Shown here piece after piece: positions 137 through 9,366 of a DNA stretch of 12,931 bases (positions are counted from its first letter, which is position 1; the number at the start of each line of letters is the position of its first letter). Under the pieces are notes generated by a model. The model was not told where the DNA came from. It worked only from the letters and a program-made list of their open reading frames with translations, and did no database searches. The stretch is from an uncultured Nitrosomonadales bacterium (lineage in GTDB: Bacteria; Pseudomonadota; Gammaproteobacteria; Burkholderiales; Gallionellaceae): contig CAIZNF010000462.1 of NCBI GenBank assembly GCA_903934275.1, positions 1 to 12,931 of the forward strand, given 5' to 3'. Position numbers and translations under genes: made by a program.

Positions 137-577
137 TTATTGAGAAGTGGAGGTTTTCTGGCAAACACTATTTAACGCATCCATTTGCATAAATTTAGCA
201 CCTGGAACTCGACGCGAGGCATATTGCAGGCCTGCGCCGTAAATCTCCGCGCCGGTCAGAGCAGAGGAGGGGAAGGCGGCTGCGATACCCGCAAGTACAA
301 AACCGGTACCGCAGCCTATTTCCAGAAATGATCCCAAATTTGGGATATGCTTTTCGAGCAGATACAGGATCAGGGTATTGCGCGACTGGAACCAGAAATT
401 GCCGGTTTCCAAGCTGGACAGCTGCTCAAAATATTCAGGATGGAACCCCTCGCTGGAATCTGCCGATTCTGCGGCCAGTGCCGGAAAACCGTTTATTTCG
501 GGCGGCGTATACTCACATTTCGGACATGTCCACCCGCTGCTTTCAAATCGTGCGTTACATGAGCTGCAAATCTTCAT
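137..577 (-). CDS. Truncated zinc-ribbon class I SAM-dependent methyltransferase
   Basis: The product is 146 aa from the ATG at 577. That ATG overlaps the wecE stop (ATGA, 574-577), which decides the start over the longer open frame reaching 679. Residues 4-21 form a CxxC...CxxC zinc ribbon (C4, C7, C18, C21). A middle stretch around HPEYFEQL (46-53) is typical of zinc-ribbon methyltransferases in polysaccharide clusters. Residues 84-92 are the SAM-binding motif I (FLEIGCGTG), followed by strand 2 (GAEIY). Family members usually run to about 250-300 aa, continuing after the MQMDA stretch into motifs of the FDVIEH and LKPGG type. Here the sequence becomes unrelated after residue 133 and stops at 137-139. 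Both other frames also hit stops just after this point, so one frameshift does not explain it. It lacks half the Rossmann fold and is probably inactive. It is the last gene of the acyl-glycan operon. Confidence 0.75.
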   Translation of the reverse strand: MKICSSCNARFESSGWTCPKCEYTPPEINGFPALAAESADSSEGFHPEYFEQLSSLETGNFWFQSRNTLILYLLEKHIPNLGSFLEIGCGTGFVLAGIAAAFPSSALTGAEIYGAGLQYASRRVPGAKFMQMDALNSVCQKTSTSQ

Positions 578-1719
578 ATCGAACGGGATCGGGCGGCGAA
601 AAATTCGCCGATGGCGGCACAGACGCGCGCGATCTCCGCTTCGCCCATTTCGTAGAACAGCGGCAGGCGCAACAGACATTCACTCAATTCCTTGGTCACT
701 CGCATAGTGCTGCCTTCCCGCCCGTATTGGCGACCCGCAGGGGCAGAGTGCAACGGTACATAATGGAATACCGGAAGAATGCTTTTTGCTTTGAGATAAC
801 TGATCAGCTCGCTGCGCGTGGTCAGGCTATCCAGCAGGATGTAGAACATGTGCCCATTGCTGTCCTCGTCAAAATCGGGCAGGCGCAAGCATCCTGCCCG
901 CTGTAGCCCGACAAGCTGCGTGGCGTATCCGGTGCAGAGGCTGCGCCGCTTGGCGACTATCTCATCGGCATGTTCCAGCTGCGCATAGAGGAAGGCGCTG
1001 ACCAGTTCGCTAGGCAGATAAGACGAGCCAATATCCACCCAGGTGTATTTATCCACTTCGCCACGAAAAAACTGGCTGCGGTTGGTGCCTTTTTCGCGGA
1101 TGATTTCGGCACGCGCGGCAAAGCGTGCATCATTCACCAGTAGCGCGCCGCCTTCGCCGCTGATGATGTTCTTTGTCTCGTGAAAACTCAGGCAACCGAA
1201 ATGTCCGATACTGCCCAGCGCCCGCCCCCGATAGGTGGAGAGCAGCGCCTGCGCCGCATCTTCGACGACCAGCAGATTATGCTGGTCGGCAATCGCCATA
1301 ATGCGCTCCATCTCGCACGGCACACCCGCATAATGTACCGGCACAATCACTTTTGTCTTGGCGGTGATGGCCGCTTCGATCAGCTTTTCGTCGATGTTCA
1401 GCGTATCGGGGCGGATATCCACAAACACCGGCACTGCGCCGCGCAGCACGAAGGCATTGGCGGTGGAAACAAAGGTGTAAGAAGGCAGGATGACTTCGTC
1501 ACCGGGCTGAATGTCGCAGAGAATCGCGGCCATCTCCAGCGCACCGGTGCAGGAATGGGTGAGTAGCGCTTTGTGGCAACCTAGTTTTTCCTCGAACCAG
1601 CGATGGCACAACTTTGTGTAAGTACCGTCGCCGGAAAGATGCCCCTGCGCCACGGCATCGGCAATCAGCGCTAACTCGCGGCCAATGATGAACGGTTTAT
1701 TGAATGGGATGGGTTTCAT
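574..1719 (-). CDS. wecE: dTDP-4-amino-4,6-dideoxygalactose transaminase (WecE/RffA type)
   Basis: This 381-aa DegT/DnrJ/EryC1-family aminotransferase is PLP-dependent. WecE converts dTDP-4-keto-6-deoxy-D-glucose plus glutamate to dTDP-4-amino-4,6-dideoxygalactose (dTDP-Fuc4N). The match to Enterobacteria WecE is close along the whole length: PFN..I.G.EL near the start, LSGDG (28-32), PSYTFVSTANAFVLRGA (79-95), DIRPDTLNID (101-110), VPVHYAGVPCEM (126-137), VVEDAAQ (151-157, with D154 expected to contact the pyridine nitrogen), SFHETKN (178-184, with K183 the Schiff-base lysine), and REKGTNRSQFFRG. Length is normal for the family. It starts 25 bp after the GT-C gene and its stop overlaps the methyltransferase start (ATGA). 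Genes for the dTDP-sugar precursor (rmlA, rmlB) are not in the window. The specificity assignment is strong by resemblance; another 4-keto-sugar substrate cannot be excluded. Confidence 0.9.
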   Translation of the reverse strand: MKPIPFNKPFIIGRELALIADAVAQGHLSGDGTYTKLCHRWFEEKLGCHKALLTHSCTGALEMAAILCDIQPGDEVILPSYTFVSTANAFVLRGAVPVFVDIRPDTLNIDEKLIEAAITAKTKVIVPVHYAGVPCEMERIMAIADQHNLLVVEDAAQALLSTYRGRALGSIGHFGCLSFHETKNIISGEGGALLVNDARFAARAEIIREKGTNRSQFFRGEVDKYTWVDIGSSYLPSELVSAFLYAQLEHADEIVAKRRSLCTGYATQLVGLQRAGCLRLPDFDEDSNGHMFYILLDSLTTRSELISYLKAKSILPVFHYVPLHSAPAGRQYGREGSTMRVTKELSECLLRLPLFYEMGEAEIARVCAAIGEFFAARSRSI

Positions 1720-1744: not shown

Positions 1745-3157
1745 TCATTTTATAGGCAATCCGGCTGTGCAGGCAGCTCCTCGGCACAGCAAATACAGCT
1801 TGTCTCCCCCGAGTTTGTATTCTTTAACGGCTGTTTCCGGTTGCGAGCCGCTATCCATCGCGATGATGAATCCGGATTCCATATCCTGGGGTGGATATTG
1901 CAACGCTTGCTGCGGATAGCGTTGTTGGTTGATGTAGGCGGACACATTCAAGCCTGTGGCAGTCGAATTTGTCACATATAGCGGTTGCCCGGCGGTGCGG
2001 GTAATAATGTCGGTGGCGGTCTGCGCGTAATTTTCACCACGAAATTTGTGCTGGTAATAGGGGAATACCACCAGCCCCAGCACAAAGCTGAGCGCGATGG
2101 TGGAGGCGAACCAGCGGCGTGCGATGTGAACCGCCGGGCTGCCCGCGCGCCAGATCAGCCGCGCCGCGATCAGCGCAAACAGCGGATAAATCGGCATCAG
2201 GTAGCGCACACCGCTGTGCGGCGCAAACCAGTAAGGAAGGAAGTTCAGTGCAGCGATCAGCAGCGCATTGCGGAAGTGTTCCGGCTGGGTCTCGTCTTGC
2301 GCGATGCGTCCGCGCCAGATGAAGTAAATCACCAGTGCAGCGGCGGGCAGCAGGCCGGACAATATCTCCAGCGGGTACAACAGAAGCTTGGCGAGATAAT
2401 CGCCGATATTGGAGGGTGCAAGCTTGGCGAGAATTTCATCGAACATGCGTCCGCTCTGGCTGTGCCCAGCAGGCACCAGCGCAAACCAAGCTAACGGCGC
2501 AAGTAGCATCGCGGTATGTGCTGCCAGAGACATCGGGCTGAACAGCAAACGGCGATAACTGCGCTCACGTACCAGCACCAGCCAAGTCGCAGCGTAAAAA
2601 ACGTAGGCGGTGAACGCTTTGCTAAGCAGGGCGCAGGTCAACGCGATGGCCGCCGCCCACAACAGATTACTGCTCTGTTCGGCGCAGGCGATCCACAGCG
2701 CGGCGATGGCAGCGAAGATGCATAGTGCGAATAGCGGGTCAACGTAAGCCAGCCAGCCGCGGTACATCAGCACATCATTGAAGGTCAGATAAGTCAGCGC
2801 GGCAAAAGCCGCGAAACTGCGCTCACGAAATAGCCTCCACACCAGCCATGACAGCACCGCAGCGGTGGCGAGCGTGGCGCAAATAGTCAGGCTGCGCGCC
2901 ACCTCCAGTACATGCGACCAGCCGAATAAATTGGCGAATACGATGATCAGCCAGTTGAACAAAGGATTGTGCTGGACATCGCCGCCATACAGGTATTGCT
3001 TGAGCCATGCGCCGTGCTGCCACATTTCCATGGAGGTGATCGGGAAGATGGCCTCTTCGCCGATGTAGTAAAGATTCAGCATTGGCAGAAAGCTCAATGC
3101 CGCCGCGATCAACAGTAAGCGAAAGGAATGAGGTTCAGTTGTCGTTATGGCTTTCAT
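1745..3157 (-). CDS. GT-C fold glycosyltransferase, ArnT/PMT-like (GT39/GT83 type)
   Basis: This 470-aa protein is strongly hydrophobic, with an N-terminal membrane segment (about 13-31) and many further segments up to about residue 370, then a soluble C-terminal tail. After the first segment, the loop has an acidic pair in YIGEEAIFP (31-39) and then QHNPLFNWL (62-70). This matches the layout of ArnT/PMT enzymes, which carry an acidic pair near the end of helix 1 and a proline-containing motif before helix 2. Such enzymes use undecaprenyl-phosphate-linked sugars on the periplasmic side of the inner membrane. The donor here is unknown; an amino sugar made through the WecE step is a reasonable guess. 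The ATG overlaps the SGNH gene stop (ATGA, 3154-3157) and is preceded by AAGGG five bases upstream (3163-3167), a good ribosome binding site. Assignment to the family is firm; substrate is inference. Confidence 0.8.
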   Translation of the reverse strand: MKAITTTEPHSFRLLLIAAALSFLPMLNLYYIGEEAIFPITSMEMWQHGAWLKQYLYGGDVQHNPLFNWLIIVFANLFGWSHVLEVARSLTICATLATAAVLSWLVWRLFRERSFAAFAALTYLTFNDVLMYRGWLAYVDPLFALCIFAAIAALWIACAEQSSNLLWAAAIALTCALLSKAFTAYVFYAATWLVLVRERSYRRLLFSPMSLAAHTAMLLAPLAWFALVPAGHSQSGRMFDEILAKLAPSNIGDYLAKLLLYPLEILSGLLPAAALVIYFIWRGRIAQDETQPEHFRNALLIAALNFLPYWFAPHSGVRYLMPIYPLFALIAARLIWRAGSPAVHIARRWFASTIALSFVLGLVVFPYYQHKFRGENYAQTATDIITRTAGQPLYVTNSTATGLNVSAYINQQRYPQQALQYPPQDMESGFIIAMDSGSQPETAVKEYKLGGDKLYLLCRGAACTAGLPIK

Positions 3158-4353
3158 CGCAACCCTTCATCGGGCAGTGCAATCGTACCATCCGGGCGCA
3201 GCAAGCCACGCCAGAATGGCTGGAATATCTTGTTGTAGCATGTCGCAGCGGCATGGTGTTCGTCAATGAATTCCTCAGCGCCGCAGCCAAAACGTTCCGC
3301 CTGCCCGGCATCCAGTATCGCCAGATGTTGCGCGCGCGCCCATTCGTCGAGTATGCGCTTGGTATTTTGCAGGCGTGCGGCGAGTTGCGGATGGCGCAGA
3401 AATTCTGCTTCCATGCCGGGCAGCAGCGGCGGTAAGAATAGCACCACACTGCCGCCCTGTTGTCTGGCGCGCTCGCCCAGTGCCGCGAGGCGTTGCAGCA
3501 GCAATGTGTCCGGCACACCTTGGGTCGAGGCCAAATTCTGGTGATATTTTGAACTGGAGGCGGTCGCCAATAGGATCAGCGAACGCGCATTGCCGACGCG
3601 CGACGAGTTGGCGAACGTGGCGCTACCGTCGAAGCGGAAGCCGGTGCAGGTGTCGCGATGGATAGTGTCAAAATCCTTGCCTGGCGTGCCATCCGGGCAG
3701 CGGTAATCATCGCTGCTATCTTGCAGGAAGTAGCCGCGAAAGGTAGCCGACTTGTTTTCGGCGCGCAGGATGGTTTTGGAAATCTCCAGCAGGCTGACGA
3801 TGCGCGGGTAGGAAAGCGCGTCGCGCATCTTGTCCAGCAAGGGAATCTGCTTGGACGCAGACTGCGATTGCCGCATGGCTGTGGTGGCTGAGAGATCGGC
3901 AGCGTATGGCGCGGCGTGCTCATAGAGGAAGCCGATCGACCAGTCCAGCGGGATCAGCAACCGCTTGATGTGCGGTGCATGTTGTTGAATATATTCCGCC
4001 TCACCGATCACAGTGCTGAGCGGATGCCCGGTTTGTGCGAAATTGTAAATATGCAGAGCACCTGGAAAAGCCTGCTGGCTGATACCCATCGCAGTGGAAG
4101 AACCGAACACCACCGTATCGATTTCAGGTAAGCGGTCATTCAGGCGCAGTGTCTTGAACAGACCGATATCGCTCAGCGTCGGCGCGTAAGTGATGCCGCG
4201 CGTCTGCTGCTGCCACAGGCTGGCGAGCAGCACCTTCCGGTAGTTGCCCAGCGTGTCGTTGAGCAGGATCAGGTTAAGGATGAGAATAGGCAGCAGCGTC
4301 GCGCCGAAGCAGGTTATCAGTATCCAGAAAAAGTGTTTGTGCTGTTTACCCAT
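3154..4353 (-). CDS. Membrane-anchored SGNH-like acyl transferase partner of the MBOAT (AlgJ/DltD-like role)
   Basis: The product is 399 aa. A single hydrophobic segment (about 8-32) anchors it, leaving a periplasmic domain. Residues 80-90 (TVVFGSSTAMG) are a block-I type nucleophile motif, with S85 or S86 the expected acyl-accepting serine. HIYNFAQTGHP (101-111) follows where block II is expected, VVLFLPPLLP (303-312) resembles the later beta-strand seen in AlgJ/AlgX/DltD-like proteins, and FIDEHH (362-367) supplies a D-x-x-H pair, D364 and H367. These features fit the extracytoplasmic transferases that work with MBOAT proteins and deliver acyl groups to a polymer. It lies 3 bp after the FkbH gene and overlaps the GT-C gene by ATGA. 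I do not recognise a named orthologue. The SGNH reading is from motifs only; the polymer acceptor is unknown. Confidence 0.7.
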   Translation of the reverse strand: MGKQHKHFFWILITCFGATLLPILILNLILLNDTLGNYRKVLLASLWQQQTRGITYAPTLSDIGLFKTLRLNDRLPEIDTVVFGSSTAMGISQQAFPGALHIYNFAQTGHPLSTVIGEAEYIQQHAPHIKRLLIPLDWSIGFLYEHAAPYAADLSATTAMRQSQSASKQIPLLDKMRDALSYPRIVSLLEISKTILRAENKSATFRGYFLQDSSDDYRCPDGTPGKDFDTIHRDTCTGFRFDGSATFANSSRVGNARSLILLATASSSKYHQNLASTQGVPDTLLLQRLAALGERARQQGGSVVLFLPPLLPGMEAEFLRHPQLAARLQNTKRILDEWARAQHLAILDAGQAERFGCGAEEFIDEHHAAATCYNKIFQPFWRGLLRPDGTIALPDEGLR

Positions 4354-4356
4354 ACT

Positions 4357-6234
4357 TCACACAACGTTTTTAACTGTCATCGGCACGGACAGGCGTTTGG
4401 CCTTGTTAATATTAAGCTCCCATGTTTCCGTACCGTTCTCGTCGCGGGTAGTTTTTGTAAAACCAAGTTTTTTGTAATGTTCCTTGACGATGATATTGCG
4501 CGAGGTGGGAATGTAGGTGCCAATGAGTTTGCTTGCACCCGCTTTTCTCGCATTTTCGATGATGTTTTGAATCACGGCCTCTTCTACGCAGCGCCCCAAA
4601 ACACGACAGCTCATGAGCCATGTATCGATTTCCCATGCCTCCGAAAAAATACGGCAGACAATAACGCTGATCATGCCGTTGTCCCCGAACGTGTCGGCGA
4701 GGCGAATCTGGCGGGCGAAAATATTTTTATCTTCCTCCAGTTGTTTTATATCGAGTTCGCTGTAACGTTTGGTGGTCAAGTTAAACTGGTTTGATTTGCT
4801 GATAAGCTGGGCGATGCGCGCCCGGCCTGTTGCATCAAAAGGTGTGAAGGTGATCTCCATATTGAGCGAGCGCAAGTATCCTTCCATGTCGGATTGATTA
4901 AGCAGCTCAGCTCGTTGTGTATTTTGCTGGTAAAACGCGGAGCGTTTCCTGTCTTCCTCGGAAAATGAGATGGCCTCGAAATATCCGGCGGCAAGCAAGG
5001 TTCGGCCATAAAGCGCTGGGTCGGACGGCAGTTCGGGAACCGCGACTTCGGGAATTTCCGTTCGCACCTGCAAGCGTTCGGCAGGGTTGTCATCCATGAA
5101 CACCATGCTATCCAAGCCGAGGGATAAGGTCTCTGCAATCGCTCTGATGTTGGATGCCTTGTCCGACCAGTTGGCCTGAAAAACGGCGATATGCTCCTCC
5201 CGCAGCAGCATATCAGGATGCTCCCGGAACGGCTTGCGGGCAACAGCATCTTCATTTTTTGACGACACGGCGAGCACTACACCCCGGTCGCGCAATCCGA
5301 GTGCCACCTGTTGCACATACAAATGTGCCTCGCCGGTGGCATCGCCGTGACCGATCAAGATACCCTCCAGGCCGTCATCGCCAATGACACCGCCCCAGAG
5401 CGTATTGTCGAGATCAAGAATCAGGCAGCGACGACTTTTGCCGCGCCGCGCCGCGATTATGCGGCAGACGTAATCCGAATAAATGGGTACGTAGTTTTGC
5501 GCGAAAGGCAGTTTTGCCATATTCCACAGCGTGGCATCGTGCCAGTTGGTCAATCCGACATTTGCCGCGAGGCCAGCCGCGTCAAGAATAGCAAGATCAA
5601 CGGATGCAAGCGCGTCCAGCTCAAGATTTATCCGCGCGATTAGCCATGAAAGCGTTCCGGGCAGTCGCCCTTCAAAGCTGCCCGAAAAACTCTCCACGGG
5701 TGGAACAATATTCTGCAGAATGATTTGAGTGCCCATCCTTGAGCAAATATTGTTGGCAATAGTTTTGATATAGGAAATGCAGCCCACCACGTTTTTATCC
5801 GCTGCGACCTTATCGCCAGGAGTAGAAATAAGCGGCAGGCCGCGGTAATCAATGCCTAAAAGCACCGCATCGGGTTTATGCCCACCAAAAACAGAATGCT
5901 CGGAAAACGCCGCTTGAGCCACCTGGTTATACTCGGCCTCAACCACGCTAAGCGCAATACCAGCGCGAAGCGTAGTGCCGATCAGCGCGGGCGTGATGAG
6001 CTTGGTGGTTGCGTTGCTGATGATGCCAAGACTGAATGGCGCAAGCGCTGACAGATCGGCATCGGCGCTTTGTAGTGCAACAAGCTTTTTTGCAAGACGG
6101 TTCAGCTGATTACTATCCAGCGCGTAGTTCGCCAGCGCACAGAGATGCTCACCCGTGGATGCCTTGGCCAACCGGCTCGCAAAATCCTGCGGCGCAGCGG
6201 GCAACCAGGAAAGATTTTCATAGGGATTGGTCAT
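4357..6234 (-). CDS. FkbH-like HAD-superfamily (IIIC) protein, probable glyceryl-ACP synthase
   Basis: The product is 625 aa. The N-terminal region (about 1-260) is the SGNH-like part usual in full-length FkbH proteins, opening with NLSWLPAAPQDF (7-18). The HAD core follows: motif I LDLDNTLWGG (273-282, nucleophile D274 and D276), SSKN (324-327), WSDKASN (356-362) with K359, and the acidic motif FMDDNPAE (379-386). The C-terminal part (about 450-600) resembles a GNAT-like domain, including SKSNQFNLT. Characterised FkbH-type enzymes take D-1,3-bisphosphoglycerate, dephosphorylate it and load a glyceryl group on an acyl carrier protein thiol. The ACP is encoded three genes upstream. The ATG overlaps the SDR stop (ATGA, 6231-6234) and has a strong Shine-Dalgarno GGAAGAG eight bases upstream (6243-6249). 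Family call is firm; that the loaded unit is glyceryl here is inferred. Confidence 0.9.
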   Translation of the reverse strand: MTNPYENLSWLPAAPQDFASRLAKASTGEHLCALANYALDSNQLNRLAKKLVALQSADADLSALAPFSLGIISNATTKLITPALIGTTLRAGIALSVVEAEYNQVAQAAFSEHSVFGGHKPDAVLLGIDYRGLPLISTPGDKVAADKNVVGCISYIKTIANNICSRMGTQIILQNIVPPVESFSGSFEGRLPGTLSWLIARINLELDALASVDLAILDAAGLAANVGLTNWHDATLWNMAKLPFAQNYVPIYSDYVCRIIAARRGKSRRCLILDLDNTLWGGVIGDDGLEGILIGHGDATGEAHLYVQQVALGLRDRGVVLAVSSKNEDAVARKPFREHPDMLLREEHIAVFQANWSDKASNIRAIAETLSLGLDSMVFMDDNPAERLQVRTEIPEVAVPELPSDPALYGRTLLAAGYFEAISFSEEDRKRSAFYQQNTQRAELLNQSDMEGYLRSLNMEITFTPFDATGRARIAQLISKSNQFNLTTKRYSELDIKQLEEDKNIFARQIRLADTFGDNGMISVIVCRIFSEAWEIDTWLMSCRVLGRCVEEAVIQNIIENARKAGASKLIGTYIPTSRNIIVKEHYKKLGFTKTTRDENGTETWELNINKAKRLSVPMTVKNVV

Positions 6235-6914
6235 GACACAATCTCTTCCAGAATCAGGCGGGCAACATCCTCCGGGCGTGCAAACGGTGTTTTCGTCTGC
6301 ATCTGTTCCAGATAACGCTCGTCAAACACCTCCAGCATCCTGGTTTGGGTAAATCCGGGACTCACGGTACGCACATACAGCCACGGATATTCCGCCGCGC
6401 ATACGGCAAGCATCCCGCGCAATGCAGTCTTGGCAATGACGTAGGCACCCATGCCGGTCACAGGCGGGTGGCTTGAGTCGCCCATCGCTTCGCTCAGTAT
6501 GCCAATCACCACGCCGGATTTGGTTTTACGGAAATAAGTTTTAATAAGACCGGCAAGCAATAATTGCGACCCCACTACATTGATGCGCAATTGATACGAC
6601 AGTATTTCCGGAGTGAGCTTGCCGAATGGCAACAAATCCGGCGGCGGTGAGGCAGCGAGCACTACGCCGGAGATGTTTCCCGCGCCTACCAATTGTTCTG
6701 ATATTTGCGCAAGTGCCTGTGCGATTGATTCATCGTGCGCCAGATCAAGCTTCACTGCAAACCCGCCGCATTCCAGCGCCAGCATTTCAGCCTGTTCCCG
6801 GTTGCCACGGTAACCTACGATGGGCTTAAAACCGCTAGACGGCAGTAACCGGCATAAGGCCGAACCGATGCCGCCGGAGCCGCCTGACACTAGTATGTAA
6901 GACGGGTAAGTCAT
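6231..6914 (-). CDS. SDR-family oxidoreductase, FabG-like ketoreductase
   Basis: The product is 227 aa from the ATG at 6914, which overlaps the MaoC stop (ATGA, 6911-6914); the open frame extends further upstream but inside maoC. The nucleotide-binding motif is SGGSGGIG (10-17), of the TGxxxGIG type. The active site has S141 (GILSEAMG), Y158 and K162 (YVIAK), and N112 in INVVG. SPGFTQTRM (185-193) is the usual PG-motif region. The NNAG motif that normally follows beta-strand 4 is replaced by LAASPPPD (86-93), so it diverges from housekeeping FabG. In this operon it most likely reduces a keto group on an ACP-bound acyl chain. A role in sugar-nucleotide reduction is possible but less likely given its place between maoC and fkbH. 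No strong ribosome binding site is visible, consistent with coupled translation. Confidence 0.85.
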   Translation of the reverse strand: MTYPSYILVSGGSGGIGSALCRLLPSSGFKPIVGYRGNREQAEMLALECGGFAVKLDLAHDESIAQALAQISEQLVGAGNISGVVLAASPPPDLLPFGKLTPEILSYQLRINVVGSQLLLAGLIKTYFRKTKSGVVIGILSEAMGDSSHPPVTGMGAYVIAKTALRGMLAVCAAEYPWLYVRTVSPGFTQTRMLEVFDERYLEQMQTKTPFARPEDVARLILEEIVS

Positions 6915-7330
6915 GCGCGCCACACTGCATTCGCCGTGCCACGGCAGAGCGTTTTGCCTGCGCGGGTGATGTGGCATTTGAAACCAAGCGCATGTGCCGC
7001 GTCGGATTTGGTGACCAGTTCCGCATTAAACCGCAAATCATCGTCGGCGAATGCCGAGCTGACGAAATTCATCGTGATACCGGTGAGGATGGCATGATTA
7101 TCCGGCAGTTCCTGTCCTATCAGGCGCGACAGCTGGCTGGCGAGCAGCAAGCCAAAGACAAGGGGGGCATCGAAACCTTTGGCTTTGGCGAAAGCTGCAT
7201 CGGTATGAAGGGGGTTGTGATCGCCGCTTAACTGCTCGAAGGCGCGCATATCTTCGCGTGAAAAGCGAAAATCCCAGCCACGCTGCAGGCCCTCGGAGTA
7301 AGCATCCCAGCCGGAGCCTGTCTCAGCCAT
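6911..7330 (-). CDS. MaoC-like (R)-hydratase/dehydratase, hot-dog fold
   Basis: The product is 139 aa from the ATG at 7330, which lies 8 bp inside the end of the ACP gene. A longer frame up to 7477 would read through the ACP gene and gives unrelated residues, so the inner start is preferred. FSREDMRAFEQLSGDHNPLH (23-42) is the hydratase-2 motif. D37 and H42 are spaced five apart, as in the catalytic Asp/His pair of PhaJ-type enoyl hydratases, and N39 is also kept. The downstream HG of the classic motif reads FG here (59-60). MaoC enzymes add or remove water across C2-C3 of a CoA- or ACP-bound acyl chain. With FkbH and the SDR in the same transcript, dehydration of an ACP-bound glyceryl group is an attractive proposal, labelled as inference. 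Function on a fatty 3-hydroxyacyl chain is the alternative. Confidence 0.85.
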   Translation of the reverse strand: MAETGSGWDAYSEGLQRGWDFRFSREDMRAFEQLSGDHNPLHTDAAFAKAKGFDAPLVFGLLLASQLSRLIGQELPDNHAILTGITMNFVSSAFADDDLRFNAELVTKSDAAHALGFKCHITRAGKTLCRGTANAVWRA

Positions 7331-7586
7331 TGGCCTGTTTTTTGATGATGAGAGCGGCCAGATCGCCGACATTTTCCAGCGAGGAAACTTCCTCAGCAGA
7401 AAAGCGCATGCCAAGCGCTTTTTCGATTGAAACGACAAGATGTATGTGCGCCAGACTATCCCAGCCATCGATATCATCGGCCTTGGTGTCGTGGGTAATG
7501 ATCAAATCGTCATCATCCAGCACATTGCGGAAGATCGGCGTTAGCCGCTGGATGATCTCTGAAGAATCTTGATTTTGGTTAGGCAT
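7323..7586 (-). CDS. Acyl carrier protein dedicated to the FkbH/MBOAT cluster
   Basis: The product is an 87-aa, acidic, four-helix-type carrier. GWDSLAHIHL (41-50) is the phosphopantetheine attachment motif, with S44 the modified serine. The residues before it (DDIDGWDSL) resemble stand-alone ACPs of FkbH, D-alanyl and flagellin-glycan systems more than housekeeping AcpP, which has a DSLD/ELV pattern. It is the first gene of the tightly packed block; its end overlaps maoC by 8 bp. Upstream, the frame closes at a TGA (7614-7616), limiting the start to this ATG. The Shine-Dalgarno is poor (GGAA about 12 bases away). No phosphopantetheinyl transferase is in the window. It should carry the acyl group from FkbH through the MaoC/SDR steps to the cytoplasmic face of the MBOAT. 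Confidence 0.92.
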   Translation of the reverse strand: MPNQNQDSSEIIQRLTPIFRNVLDDDDLIITHDTKADDIDGWDSLAHIHLVVSIEKALGMRFSAEEVSSLENVGDLAALIIKKQANG

Positions 7587-7679
7587 GGCTTGGCTAAATT
7601 CCGATATATTTTGTCAAAAACTACAGTCCCGGGTTGATTCAATGGCAGCGCAGGTAGTTACCGGGGAAGGTGGTAAACA

Positions 7680-7778
7680 CTACATGGCGGATTTTACAAC
7701 ACCTGCCGATGATGTGTGCCGCAAAGCATTGCCGGACGACAGGTATGAAATAAGTATTAACAATACGGTGGACACCAT
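7680..7778 (-). CDS. Possible 32-aa hydrophobic microprotein after the MBOAT gene
   Basis: The 193-bp gap between the MBOAT and ACP genes holds no gene of normal size. A 32-codon frame begins with an ATG one base after the MBOAT stop (stop TGA 7782-7780, ATG 7778-7776) and ends TAG at 7680. Its N-terminus, MVSTVLLILISYL, is hydrophobic, and the rest is polar. The location beside an MBOAT recalls DltX-type transmembrane microproteins, but it is shorter than those and lacks the C-terminal aromatic motif, which is instead on the MBOAT itself. No clear ribosome binding site is seen beyond coupling to the MBOAT stop. A chance frame is more likely than not. A small 13-base palindrome (GTATT AAC AATAC, 7754-7766) lies inside it. 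Confidence 0.15.
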   Translation of the reverse strand: MVSTVLLILISYLSSGNALRHTSSAGVVKSAM

Positions 7779-7779
7779 T

Positions 7780-9366
7780 TCAGAACTGAAAATACAGGAA
7801 AACCGACTGCTTATTCAGATTGATAACGGCGATGAAGCCGAGCAGCCAAACCAATGCGGCGGCCTTGACTGTTGGTCGCCAAGCTAGGCGGGTGGCAGTC
7901 ATGGCTGGCACACCGAGCGCCGGTTTAAAGTGTTGCATGATCTGCTGCGTGTTAGGTGCCAGCAATACGATCAGCATCAGTATCCATATCCAGTTAATCG
8001 CACCGCCGCCGATCAAGCCGTTGGTCGCGCCGAAAACCATGCCATGCGCTGCCAGCCATTGTCCGAAAATACCCCACTTGAGCAACCACGCATCCGGCAT
8101 CACAAAGCCGTTTAAGCCCAATGCACCCTGATAAATAGAGGTGGCAGTGACGACACTATCGGCGCGAAACATCACAAAAGTAAGGCTCACGCTGAAAAAG
8201 GTCACCGCCCAGCCAAGTGCGCGCGTGAAAAAGGACGGCGGAGTTTTTTTATGGCTCTGCCAGAAACCGCGTTTGCGCCAGAGATGGTTGATAACCAGCA
8301 ATACGCCGTGCATACCGCCAAAGATGACATAGTTCCAGTTTGCCCCGTGCCAGAGCCCGATAACAAGAAAAATGGCAATCGTTGGAATGATCAGGCTGTA
8401 CGATATCTCCACCCAGGCCGGTTTGCCGAAGCCGATCCGCGTGCCTGCCAGTGTGATGGGTATATATAAATATTCCCTGATGTATTTGGTAAGTGAAATA
8501 TGCCAGCGCTGCCAGAACTCGATAATGCTCACCGACTTGTAGGGGGAATGGAAATTGAGCGGCAAAATAACGCCGAACATGCGCGACAAGCCGATGGCCA
8601 TGTCGGAATAGCCGGAGAAGTCGAAGTACAGTTGCAGCGCGTAACACAGCGCCCCCCCCCACGCCTCGATGAAGGTGAGCGATACCCCCGCCGCCGGTGC
8701 GCTGAATACAGGTCCGACGTATTCGGCGATACCATCGGCCAGGATGACCTTTTTGAACAGCCCGATGAAAAAGATGGTCAGACCCACCGCCATGTTTTCG
8801 TAGCTAAAGCGGTAAGTGGACGCATGCGCAAACTGCGGCATCATATCCCGATGGTGCAGTACCGGCCCTGCGATGAGGTGCGGAAAATAGGTAACGAACA
8901 GCAGGTAGTGAATAAAATTATATTCCTTCACCTTGCCCTGGTAAGTGTCCACCAAAAAGGATATTTGAGTGAAGGTAAAAAAGGAAATGCCCAGCGGCAG
9001 GATGATTTCACCCAGCGTAAGTTGCGTGCCTGCCACGGCGTTAATGTTGCCGAGAAAAAAATTGGCATATTTGTAATAACCGAGCAACAGCAGGTTGGAG
9101 GTAATGGCGACAATCAACAGCTGCTTCTTGAGTCTCTGCTCATGCCGTACTCCCGCCTTGGCGATCCACAATCCGAACGCGTAGTTGCAGATGATCGAGC
9201 CGAGCAGCAGGCCTACATAGGCCGGGTTCCAGTATCCGTAAAAGAACAGCGAGGCCAGCGCCAGCCATCCTGCGGCAAAGGCGTGGCTTATCCGCGCCAG
9301 CCAGAAAAACCCTAGCAACACGGCGGGTAAATAAAGGAAAATGAAGCCGTATGAGTTGAACAGCAT
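7780..9366 (-). CDS. MBOAT-family membrane O-acyltransferase with C-terminal acyl-shuttle hexapeptide
   Basis: The product is 528 aa from the ATG at 9366; MLFNSYGFIFLYLP is the usual family start, so the 24 extra upstream residues of the open frame are left out. It has many membrane segments and the AlgI/DltB signatures: LPLGISFFTFTQISFLVD (123-140), YFPHLIAGPV (160-169), LQLYFDFSGYSDMAIG (245-259), FWQRWHISLT (284-293) and IGLWHGANWNYVIFGG (336-351), where H340 is the invariant catalytic histidine and H289 the second conserved one. The protein ends exactly in FLYFQF (523-528), with Y525. In the Dlt pathway and related systems, an MBOAT moves an acyl group from a carrier thioester to the tyrosine of such a C-terminal motif, from which a serine transferase takes it. 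A run of nine G (8652-8660) lies in codons W236-A239. It is followed by the ACP operon in the same direction. Confidence 0.93.
   Translation of the reverse strand: MLFNSYGFIFLYLPAVLLGFFWLARISHAFAAGWLALASLFFYGYWNPAYVGLLLGSIICNYAFGLWIAKAGVRHEQRLKKQLLIVAITSNLLLLGYYKYANFFLGNINAVAGTQLTLGEIILPLGISFFTFTQISFLVDTYQGKVKEYNFIHYLLFVTYFPHLIAGPVLHHRDMMPQFAHASTYRFSYENMAVGLTIFFIGLFKKVILADGIAEYVGPVFSAPAAGVSLTFIEAWGGALCYALQLYFDFSGYSDMAIGLSRMFGVILPLNFHSPYKSVSIIEFWQRWHISLTKYIREYLYIPITLAGTRIGFGKPAWVEISYSLIIPTIAIFLVIGLWHGANWNYVIFGGMHGVLLVINHLWRKRGFWQSHKKTPPSFFTRALGWAVTFFSVSLTFVMFRADSVVTATSIYQGALGLNGFVMPDAWLLKWGIFGQWLAAHGMVFGATNGLIGGGAINWIWILMLIVLLAPNTQQIMQHFKPALGVPAMTATRLAWRPTVKAAALVWLLGFIAVINLNKQSVFLYFQF
8652..8660 (-). 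repeat. Poly-G(9) tract within the MBOAT coding sequence
   Basis: Nine consecutive C on the plus strand read as nine G on the coding strand, in codons TGG GGG GGG GCG (W236, G237, G238, A239). The glycine codons could be written many other ways. A gain or loss of one base would shift the frame less than halfway through the 528-aa protein and remove the catalytic H340 and the terminal FLYFQF motif. Tracts of this length are prone to slipped-strand mispairing. Whether it switches in this organism cannot be seen here. Confidence 0.9.

Follow-up and report, generated by a model that had tools for sequence, protein, structure and literature searches.

Of the MBOAT/SGNH pathways, the Dlt system for teichoic acid D-alanylation (DltA, DltB, DltC, DltD, and DltX) has been described as the one relying on a carrier protein, with the others said to operate without one (PMC12148441). 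A comparable arrangement occurs in the DNA analyzed here, which is one whole contig of 12,931 bp (CAIZNF010000462.1, hereafter the window) from the 722-contig genome (94% complete, 5.7% contamination) of an uncultured Nitrosomonadales bacterium. In the window, the genes for an MBOAT acyltransferase and an SGNH-like membrane protein are separated by four genes, which encode an acyl carrier protein (ACP), a MaoC-type dehydratase, a short-chain dehydrogenase/reductase (SDR), and an FkbH-type enzyme. With a probability of roughly 0.5, we read this locus as a Dlt-like, carrier-fed MBOAT/SGNH system that is loaded by FkbH instead of DltA and whose four-gene supply cassette probably delivers lactyl to an exported glycan. 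Sequence comparison establishes the gene content, the catalytic residues, the absence of the block in relatives, the mosaic MBOAT, and the recurrence in other phyla.

Besides the carrier protein (PF00550, Ser44), the window shares with Dlt an MBOAT, an SGNH-fold partner, and a C-terminal tyrosine shuttle motif. It departs from Dlt in that FkbH replaces DltA, the shuttle is fused to the MBOAT rather than being a separate DltX, MaoC and SDR are additional, and the host is Gram-negative-like. Because no AMP-binding enzyme (DltA-type D-alanine ligase) was found among the 13 window open reading frames (ORFs) scanned against family models, and because the MBOAT scores 194 bits against the DltB model TIGR04091 (cutoff, 375), the system, although it would work like Dlt, is on these comparisons no member of it. 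With acetyl-coenzyme A (CoA)-fed pairs of the AlgI/PatA type, the window shares the resident MBOAT-SGNH pair and the shuttle motif; the catalytic histidine of MBOAT-SGNH acyltransferases is present as H340. Unlike in these pairs, the donor-side segment of the window MBOAT is longer and different (51 residues between two conserved histidines), and an ACP/FkbH block adjoins it; the MBOATs of relatives have YLYIPLGGNR and a spacing of 40.

FkbH and a stand-alone ACP are also found in methoxymalonyl-ACP and tetronate glycerate operons, for which 1,3-bisphosphoglycerate is given as the presumed source (PMC7489565). In contrast to these operons, the window has an MBOAT/SGNH pair as receiver, and its scanned ORFs include no gene for a polyketide synthase and none of the FabH-like or FkbI/FkbK type. 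The bryostatin-type D-lactyl loading module combines FkbH, a dehydratase, a ketoreductase, and an ACP, the same four activities as the window block, although in the window the proteins are separate and a polyketide synthase is absent from the scanned ORFs. Aeruginosin-type clusters (suomilide, varlaxin) are described as combining FkbH with an MBOAT; unlike in the window, a peptide synthetase is what FkbH loads there, the MBOAT acting separately in tailoring (PMC10143770). We found no account of FkbH/ACP feeding an MBOAT/SGNH pair in the open-licence literature; an earlier mention elsewhere is possible.

A four-gene block within a resident locus

The minus-strand gene order is MBOAT, ACP, MaoC, SDR, FkbH, SGNH-like, PMT_2-type glycosyltransferase (GT), WecE-like transaminase, and partial methyltransferase. 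The features are as follows.

7780..9366, minus strand: MBOAT acyltransferase, 528 aa, mosaic (PF03062, E = 3e-24; H340, H289; segment trees)
8092..8517, minus strand: MBOAT residues 284 to 425, exchanged donor-side segment; the first part aligns with the tunnel of DltB and the helix on which DltC docks
7783..7800, minus strand: C-terminal FLYFQF of the MBOAT, which fits the FXYXXF acyl-shuttle motif
7587..7779, no strand: 193-bp spacer from the MBOAT stop to the ACP start
7323..7586, minus strand: acyl carrier protein, Ser44 (PF00550 over cutoff)
6911..7330, minus strand: MaoC-type dehydratase, D37/H42 (PF01575, E = 1e-16)
6231..6914, minus strand: SDR, ketoreductase-like, Y158/K162 (PF00106, E = 1e-18)
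4357..6234, minus strand: FkbH-type glyceryl transferase/phosphatase, D274/D276/C543 (TIGR01686, 294 bits; cutoff, 147)
3154..4353, minus strand: SGNH-fold membrane-anchored protein, S86/D364/H367 (conserved residues; predicted structure)
1745..3157, minus strand: PMT_2-type glycosyltransferase of the resident locus (PF13231 barely over cutoff; synteny)
574..1719, minus strand: WecE-like dTDP-4-amino-4,6-dideoxyhexose transaminase of the resident locus (NF008687, 602 bits; cutoff, 375; synteny)

The six genes from MBOAT to SGNH that the earlier note had placed on one strand with intact catalytic residues are real, with S86 as the SGNH serine; its term "complete pathway" is too strong, since the contig ends just beyond wecE and glycan genes are not in view. 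All 79 FkbH sequences (window counted) have D274, D276, and C543, and S86, D364, and H367 are invariant in 40/40 SGNH homologues (picked among the 120 matches listed). The SGNH protein has no family match over cutoff; its predicted structure (mean predicted local distance difference test score, 90) aligns with SGNH enzymes, including PatB and DltD.

FkbH has a match in 5 of 158 same-family genomes (own counted), compared with 26 for the SGNH protein and 91 for a window-type MBOAT; within its genus, FkbH occurs in the window's own genome only. The name Gallionella sp. is borne by several SGNH and MBOAT proteins among the closest matches, which makes a Gallionella-like betaproteobacterium a likely host. 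Twenty regions around the MBOAT/SGNH pair were fetched from relatives. By match coordinates, the two genes adjoin in all 20; the ORF script confirms this for 17 of them but overlooks it in L138, L151, and L153. A divergent apaH followed by MBOAT-SGNH-GT-wecE, the window order minus ACP-MaoC-SDR-FkbH, is present in L140, L141, and L142, and the short contig L139 carries MBOAT-SGNH-GT-wecE. The remaining regions keep the pair, with surroundings that differ further out. No gene labeled ACP, FkbH, MaoC, or SDR occurs among up to six genes on each side of the pair in the 20 regions. Where listed, only a few bases separate the MBOAT stop from the SGNH start in relatives; in the window, the MBOAT is followed by the 193-bp spacer, the four-gene block, and a 3-bp gap between FkbH and SGNH.

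Judged by this synteny, the four-gene block separates a resident MBOAT from its SGNH partner. The six-gene cluster proposed earlier thus holds as a gene set and fails as a single ancestral cluster, its block lying inside a resident MBOAT-SGNH-GT-wecE locus and being absent in relatives. Because the window MBOAT is mosaic, gain of the block in the window's lineage would be the simpler reading, and its loss in other lineages the less simple one.

On the MBOAT side, the cluster is flanked by apaH-like, queG, and tsaE genes. A plus-strand ORF across the 193-bp spacer has no Pfam match. Near the contig end lies a methyltransferase-like ORF (137-679, 180 aa), to which proteins of 291 aa (L151) and 296 aa (L152) are related. 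In FkbH-linked ACPs, the phosphopantetheine serine is followed by SLxH[IV]R; the residue at serine+5 is Arg in 54/61 and His in the window ACP.

The donor-side segment of the MBOAT

Compared with the nearest relative, L139, the window proteins are 81% (SGNH), 82% (GT), and 86% (WecE) identical, the MBOAT only 73%; in eleven other relatives, the MBOAT is 80 to 88% and the SGNH protein 47 to 71% identical to that of L139. The mean identity of the window MBOAT to 48 cassette-lacking homologues, taken in sliding windows, is 76 to 91% up to residue 300, 34 to 49% between residues 281 and 420, and 60 to 65% beyond. In trees of 68 sequences, residues 1 to 280 and 430 to 528 group with the MBOATs of relatives (supports of 0.99 and 0.97, respectively), and residues 284 to 425 group with FkbH-linked L002-L009, which belong to other genera (support of 0.96). 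With 48 sequences, the approximately unbiased test rejected placing window-type and relatives' MBOATs together for the central segment (P = 0.00029), while the grouping of residues 1 to 280 with relatives has a support of 97.

Sixteen alignment columns discriminate the window MBOAT and 11 close homologues from 48 others, and 14 of these fall within residues 286 to 352. They make up 14/32 of the conserved columns inside this stretch and 2/217 outside it (Fisher P = 1.8e-12, a value that informs on location only, since the discriminating changes lie on one branch). By sequence, the only PDB match of the MBOAT is DltB, of which about residues 286 to 348 align with MBOAT residues 286 to 352. This part of DltB includes the tunnel residues Ser293 and Met332 and the horizontal DltC-binding helix (Met302, Val305, Ile306, Met309, and Lys312, with Arg317 on the following helix), as reported for that enzyme (PMC11035591).

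The spacing of the two conserved histidines was also compared. It is 51 in the window MBOAT and its 12 closest homologues and 47 in DltB (by alignment), and it is 40 in the other 108 homologues among the matches listed and in 19/19 MBOAT frames of the fetched relatives. Where an MBOAT accompanies FkbH, the spacing is 47 to 60 in 54/56 loci, the remaining two not being measurable. As a survey, 80 MBOAT loci were taken from the first 80 places of a 150-genome Pseudomonadota draw, own genome excluded. The 79 measurable frames of 81 include 74 with a spacing of 37 to 42 and 5 with a spacing of 43 or more; an ACP neighbors 3/5 of the long-spaced MBOATs versus 1/74 of the short-spaced ones. We infer that short spacing (∼40) may mark CoA use. 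Moreover, 5/12 of the closest MBOAT homologues, versus 0/108 of the others among the matches listed, are inferred to share a contig with an FkbH match (contigs equated by equal size). On this evidence, the change that came with the cassette lies in the donor-side part of the MBOAT rather than in SGNH or GT, and the donor-docking segment appears to be of the type otherwise found beside FkbH-cassette genes. The trees and discriminating columns thereby uphold the earlier link between the MBOAT and the ACP/FkbH supply.

In the survey, the MBOATs of L260, L265, and L263 (1895-5701) have a 53-residue spacing with no FkbH in view. The neighbors in L263 are an ACP and a radical S-adenosylmethionine protein, and in L260 a pyridine-nucleotide oxidoreductase; these MBOATs perhaps belong to other carrier-fed acyl routes.

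The tyrosine of the FXYXXF shuttle motif, which the C-terminal FLYFQF of the window MBOAT fits, is reported to be acylated in PatA and DltX (PMC12148441). The motif is present in 51/57 FkbH-linked frames, several of the other six being truncated.

Recurrence of FkbH with ACP, MBOAT, and SGNH

A scan of named genomes retrieved 87 FkbH relatives, of which the best 80 were kept; their source phyla are Proteobacteria, Acidobacteria, Eremiobacterota, Myxococcota, and a few others. Partner genes within 8 kb of FkbH were counted with hidden Markov models built from these loci, so the counts describe that set. An ACP is present in 65 of the 80 loci, an MBOAT in 56 (all within 3 kb), and an SGNH partner in at least 48, a lower bound because the ALGX-family (L004) and DUF1574-like (L007) partners were not modeled. 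The earlier note had named, as an outcome that would refute it, homologous clusters in which the MBOAT never accompanies the ACP/FkbH genes; this is not the case, as ACP and MBOAT are both present in 51/80 loci. Where FkbH has 4 kb or more of sequence on both sides, 37/47 loci have an MBOAT. For scale, 58/150 evenly drawn Pseudomonadota genomes contain any MBOAT. The MBOAT survey, which was not selected for FkbH, yielded one full ACP-FkbH-MaoC/SDR-MBOAT set (L230).

In Sinorhizobium meliloti (L082, CP140944.1, 9990-15875; L086, strain 1021 pSymB), genes for a VOC protein, an MBOAT, a 409-aa protein annotated as a TonB-dependent receptor, an ACP, and FkbH are consecutive, and the capsule-export gene rkpR lies ∼7 kb downstream of this set (L082). 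Asn replaces the first His of this MBOAT, with the segment still long, and the FkbH frame is interrupted in the 1021 record and in one piece in the 2011 record. Two Sphingomonas loci (L026 and L027, about 9600-14440) have the order ACP-FkbH-SGNH-MBOAT; gellan from Sphingomonas carries glyceryl.

Several observations weigh against the proposed FkbH-loaded, lactyl-delivering system. For residues 1 to 280, the alternative grouping is borderline (P = 0.055); the central-segment grouping has a support of 91 and is unstarred; and the tree groups were named only after the first trees had been inspected. The FXYXXF motif also occurs in 77/81 survey MBOATs and, being common to both donor types, does not tell the donor type. 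L230 carries the full set yet has a spacing of only 43, no ACP was found by the 53-spaced MBOATs of L260 (3980-5611) and L265 (3484-5661), and in L210/L268 FkbH adjoins a 40-spaced MBOAT on opposite strands, again with no ACP found. Within 8 kb, 24/80 FkbH loci have no MBOAT, many of them interrupted by contig ends, as do 10/47 with 4 kb on both sides. In L063 (9728-16162), ACP, FkbH, and a fused MaoC/SDR stand next to exosortase-A hydrolases 1 and 2 (TIGR03100 over cutoff, TIGR03101 slightly under) with no MBOAT within 8 kb, and L057 (9728-16235) was assigned the same arrangement by clustering; the FkbH-ACP module can thus serve other purposes. Finally, MaoC occurs without SDR in L004 and others.

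The likely acyl group and alternative explanations

We infer each chemical step, the lactyl product, and the glycan of the proposed pathway as follows. FkbH would take glyceryl from 1,3-bisphosphoglycerate and load it onto the ACP, MaoC would dehydrate glyceryl-ACP to 2-hydroxyacrylyl (a pyruvyl tautomer), and the SDR would reduce this to lactyl-ACP. The acyl-ACP would dock on the exchanged MBOAT segment, the MBOAT would pass the acyl group to its own C-terminal Tyr (FLYFQF), and the SGNH protein would receive it from this residue and esterify the exported glycan. The presence of WecE suggests a 4-amino-4,6-dideoxyhexose in the glycan.

MaoC and SDR occur together in 14/80 FkbH loci, fused in 12 (∼480 aa; Pfam-checked in L008, L021, and survey locus L230) and as separate genes in 2, as in the window. 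The fusion elsewhere suggests that MaoC and SDR of the window may act in sequence. MaoC alone is present in 4/80 loci, a methyltransferase in 17/80, and a VOC protein in 18/80 (L007 by Pfam), while some loci have no tailoring gene; 15/18 loci with a MaoC-type gene also have an MBOAT. This pattern would fit glyceryl as the base acyl group, optionally turned into lactyl or methylated forms. The earlier expectation of a glyceryl, lactyl, or related ester can be narrowed accordingly, as the presence of MaoC and SDR would make lactyl likelier than plain glyceryl. A pathway tool gives D-lactate-ACP as the product of FkbH loading modules (PMC7901079).

The alternative that survives best, although we consider it unlikely, is a carrier-fed system that transfers glyceryl, pyruvyl, or another three-carbon acyl group, with MaoC and SDR acting otherwise (e.g., the SDR oxidizing glyceryl). 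Many FkbH-ACP-MBOAT loci lack MaoC and SDR, and plain glyceryl transfer is likely in those loci; oxidation of glyceryl-ACP by dehydrogenases is also described as the proposed route to methoxymalonyl-ACP (PMC7489565). However, the MaoC-SDR fusions are as a dehydration-reduction pair would be, and the scanned window ORFs include no FkbI/FkbK-type genes.

Less probable again is that the cassette serves to N-acylate the WecE product, an amino sugar, in the cytoplasm and only neighbors an acetyl-CoA-fed MBOAT/SGNH pair. WecE is in the locus, FkbH-ACP modules without MBOAT occur (L057 and L063), and relatives carry the pair without FkbH. Against this, the block-lacking relatives also have WecE, WecE-like matches occur in 7/80 FkbH loci versus an MBOAT within 3 kb in 56/80, no N-acyltransferase was found among the scanned window ORFs, and the MBOAT segment changed with the cassette while SGNH and GT did not. 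An assembly artefact, with the block or the MBOAT segment as a chimaera, might be suspected in a fragmented genome with 5.7% contamination and the only FkbH of its genus, but it is very improbable given that FkbH homologues 78 to 97% identical lie on other contigs, that in length and characteristic residues the segment matches FkbH-linked MBOATs (P328 and F349 in 20/20 aligned), and that, with shared contigs inferred from equal size and one pairing (4010) possibly due to chance, 5 contigs are common to FkbH and window-type MBOAT matches, 6 to FkbH and SGNH, and 0 to FkbH and the other 108 MBOATs.

Beyond the lactyl-delivering, carrier-fed system proposed for the window, we tentatively put forward some wider ideas, which jointly stand at somewhat below even odds. 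Bacteria may reprogramme the surface O-acyltransferases they already possess by acquiring an acyl factory built on a carrier protein and swapping no more of the MBOAT than its donor-docking segment, and the segment between the two histidines would predict whether an enzyme is carrier fed or CoA fed. FkbH cassettes with interchangeable tailoring (none, MaoC and SDR, methyltransferase, or VOC) may give rise to a large unrecognized class of glycan esters, predicted to be glyceryl, lactyl, and O-methylglyceryl. The related gene set of S. meliloti offers a tractable organism for such a system. The mosaic MBOAT would be a natural experiment pointing to the donor-selecting segment, making donor choice directly testable. 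If true, a second, widespread carrier-fed class with glycolysis as its source would extend the surface chemistry expected of bacteria to hydroxy-acid esters.

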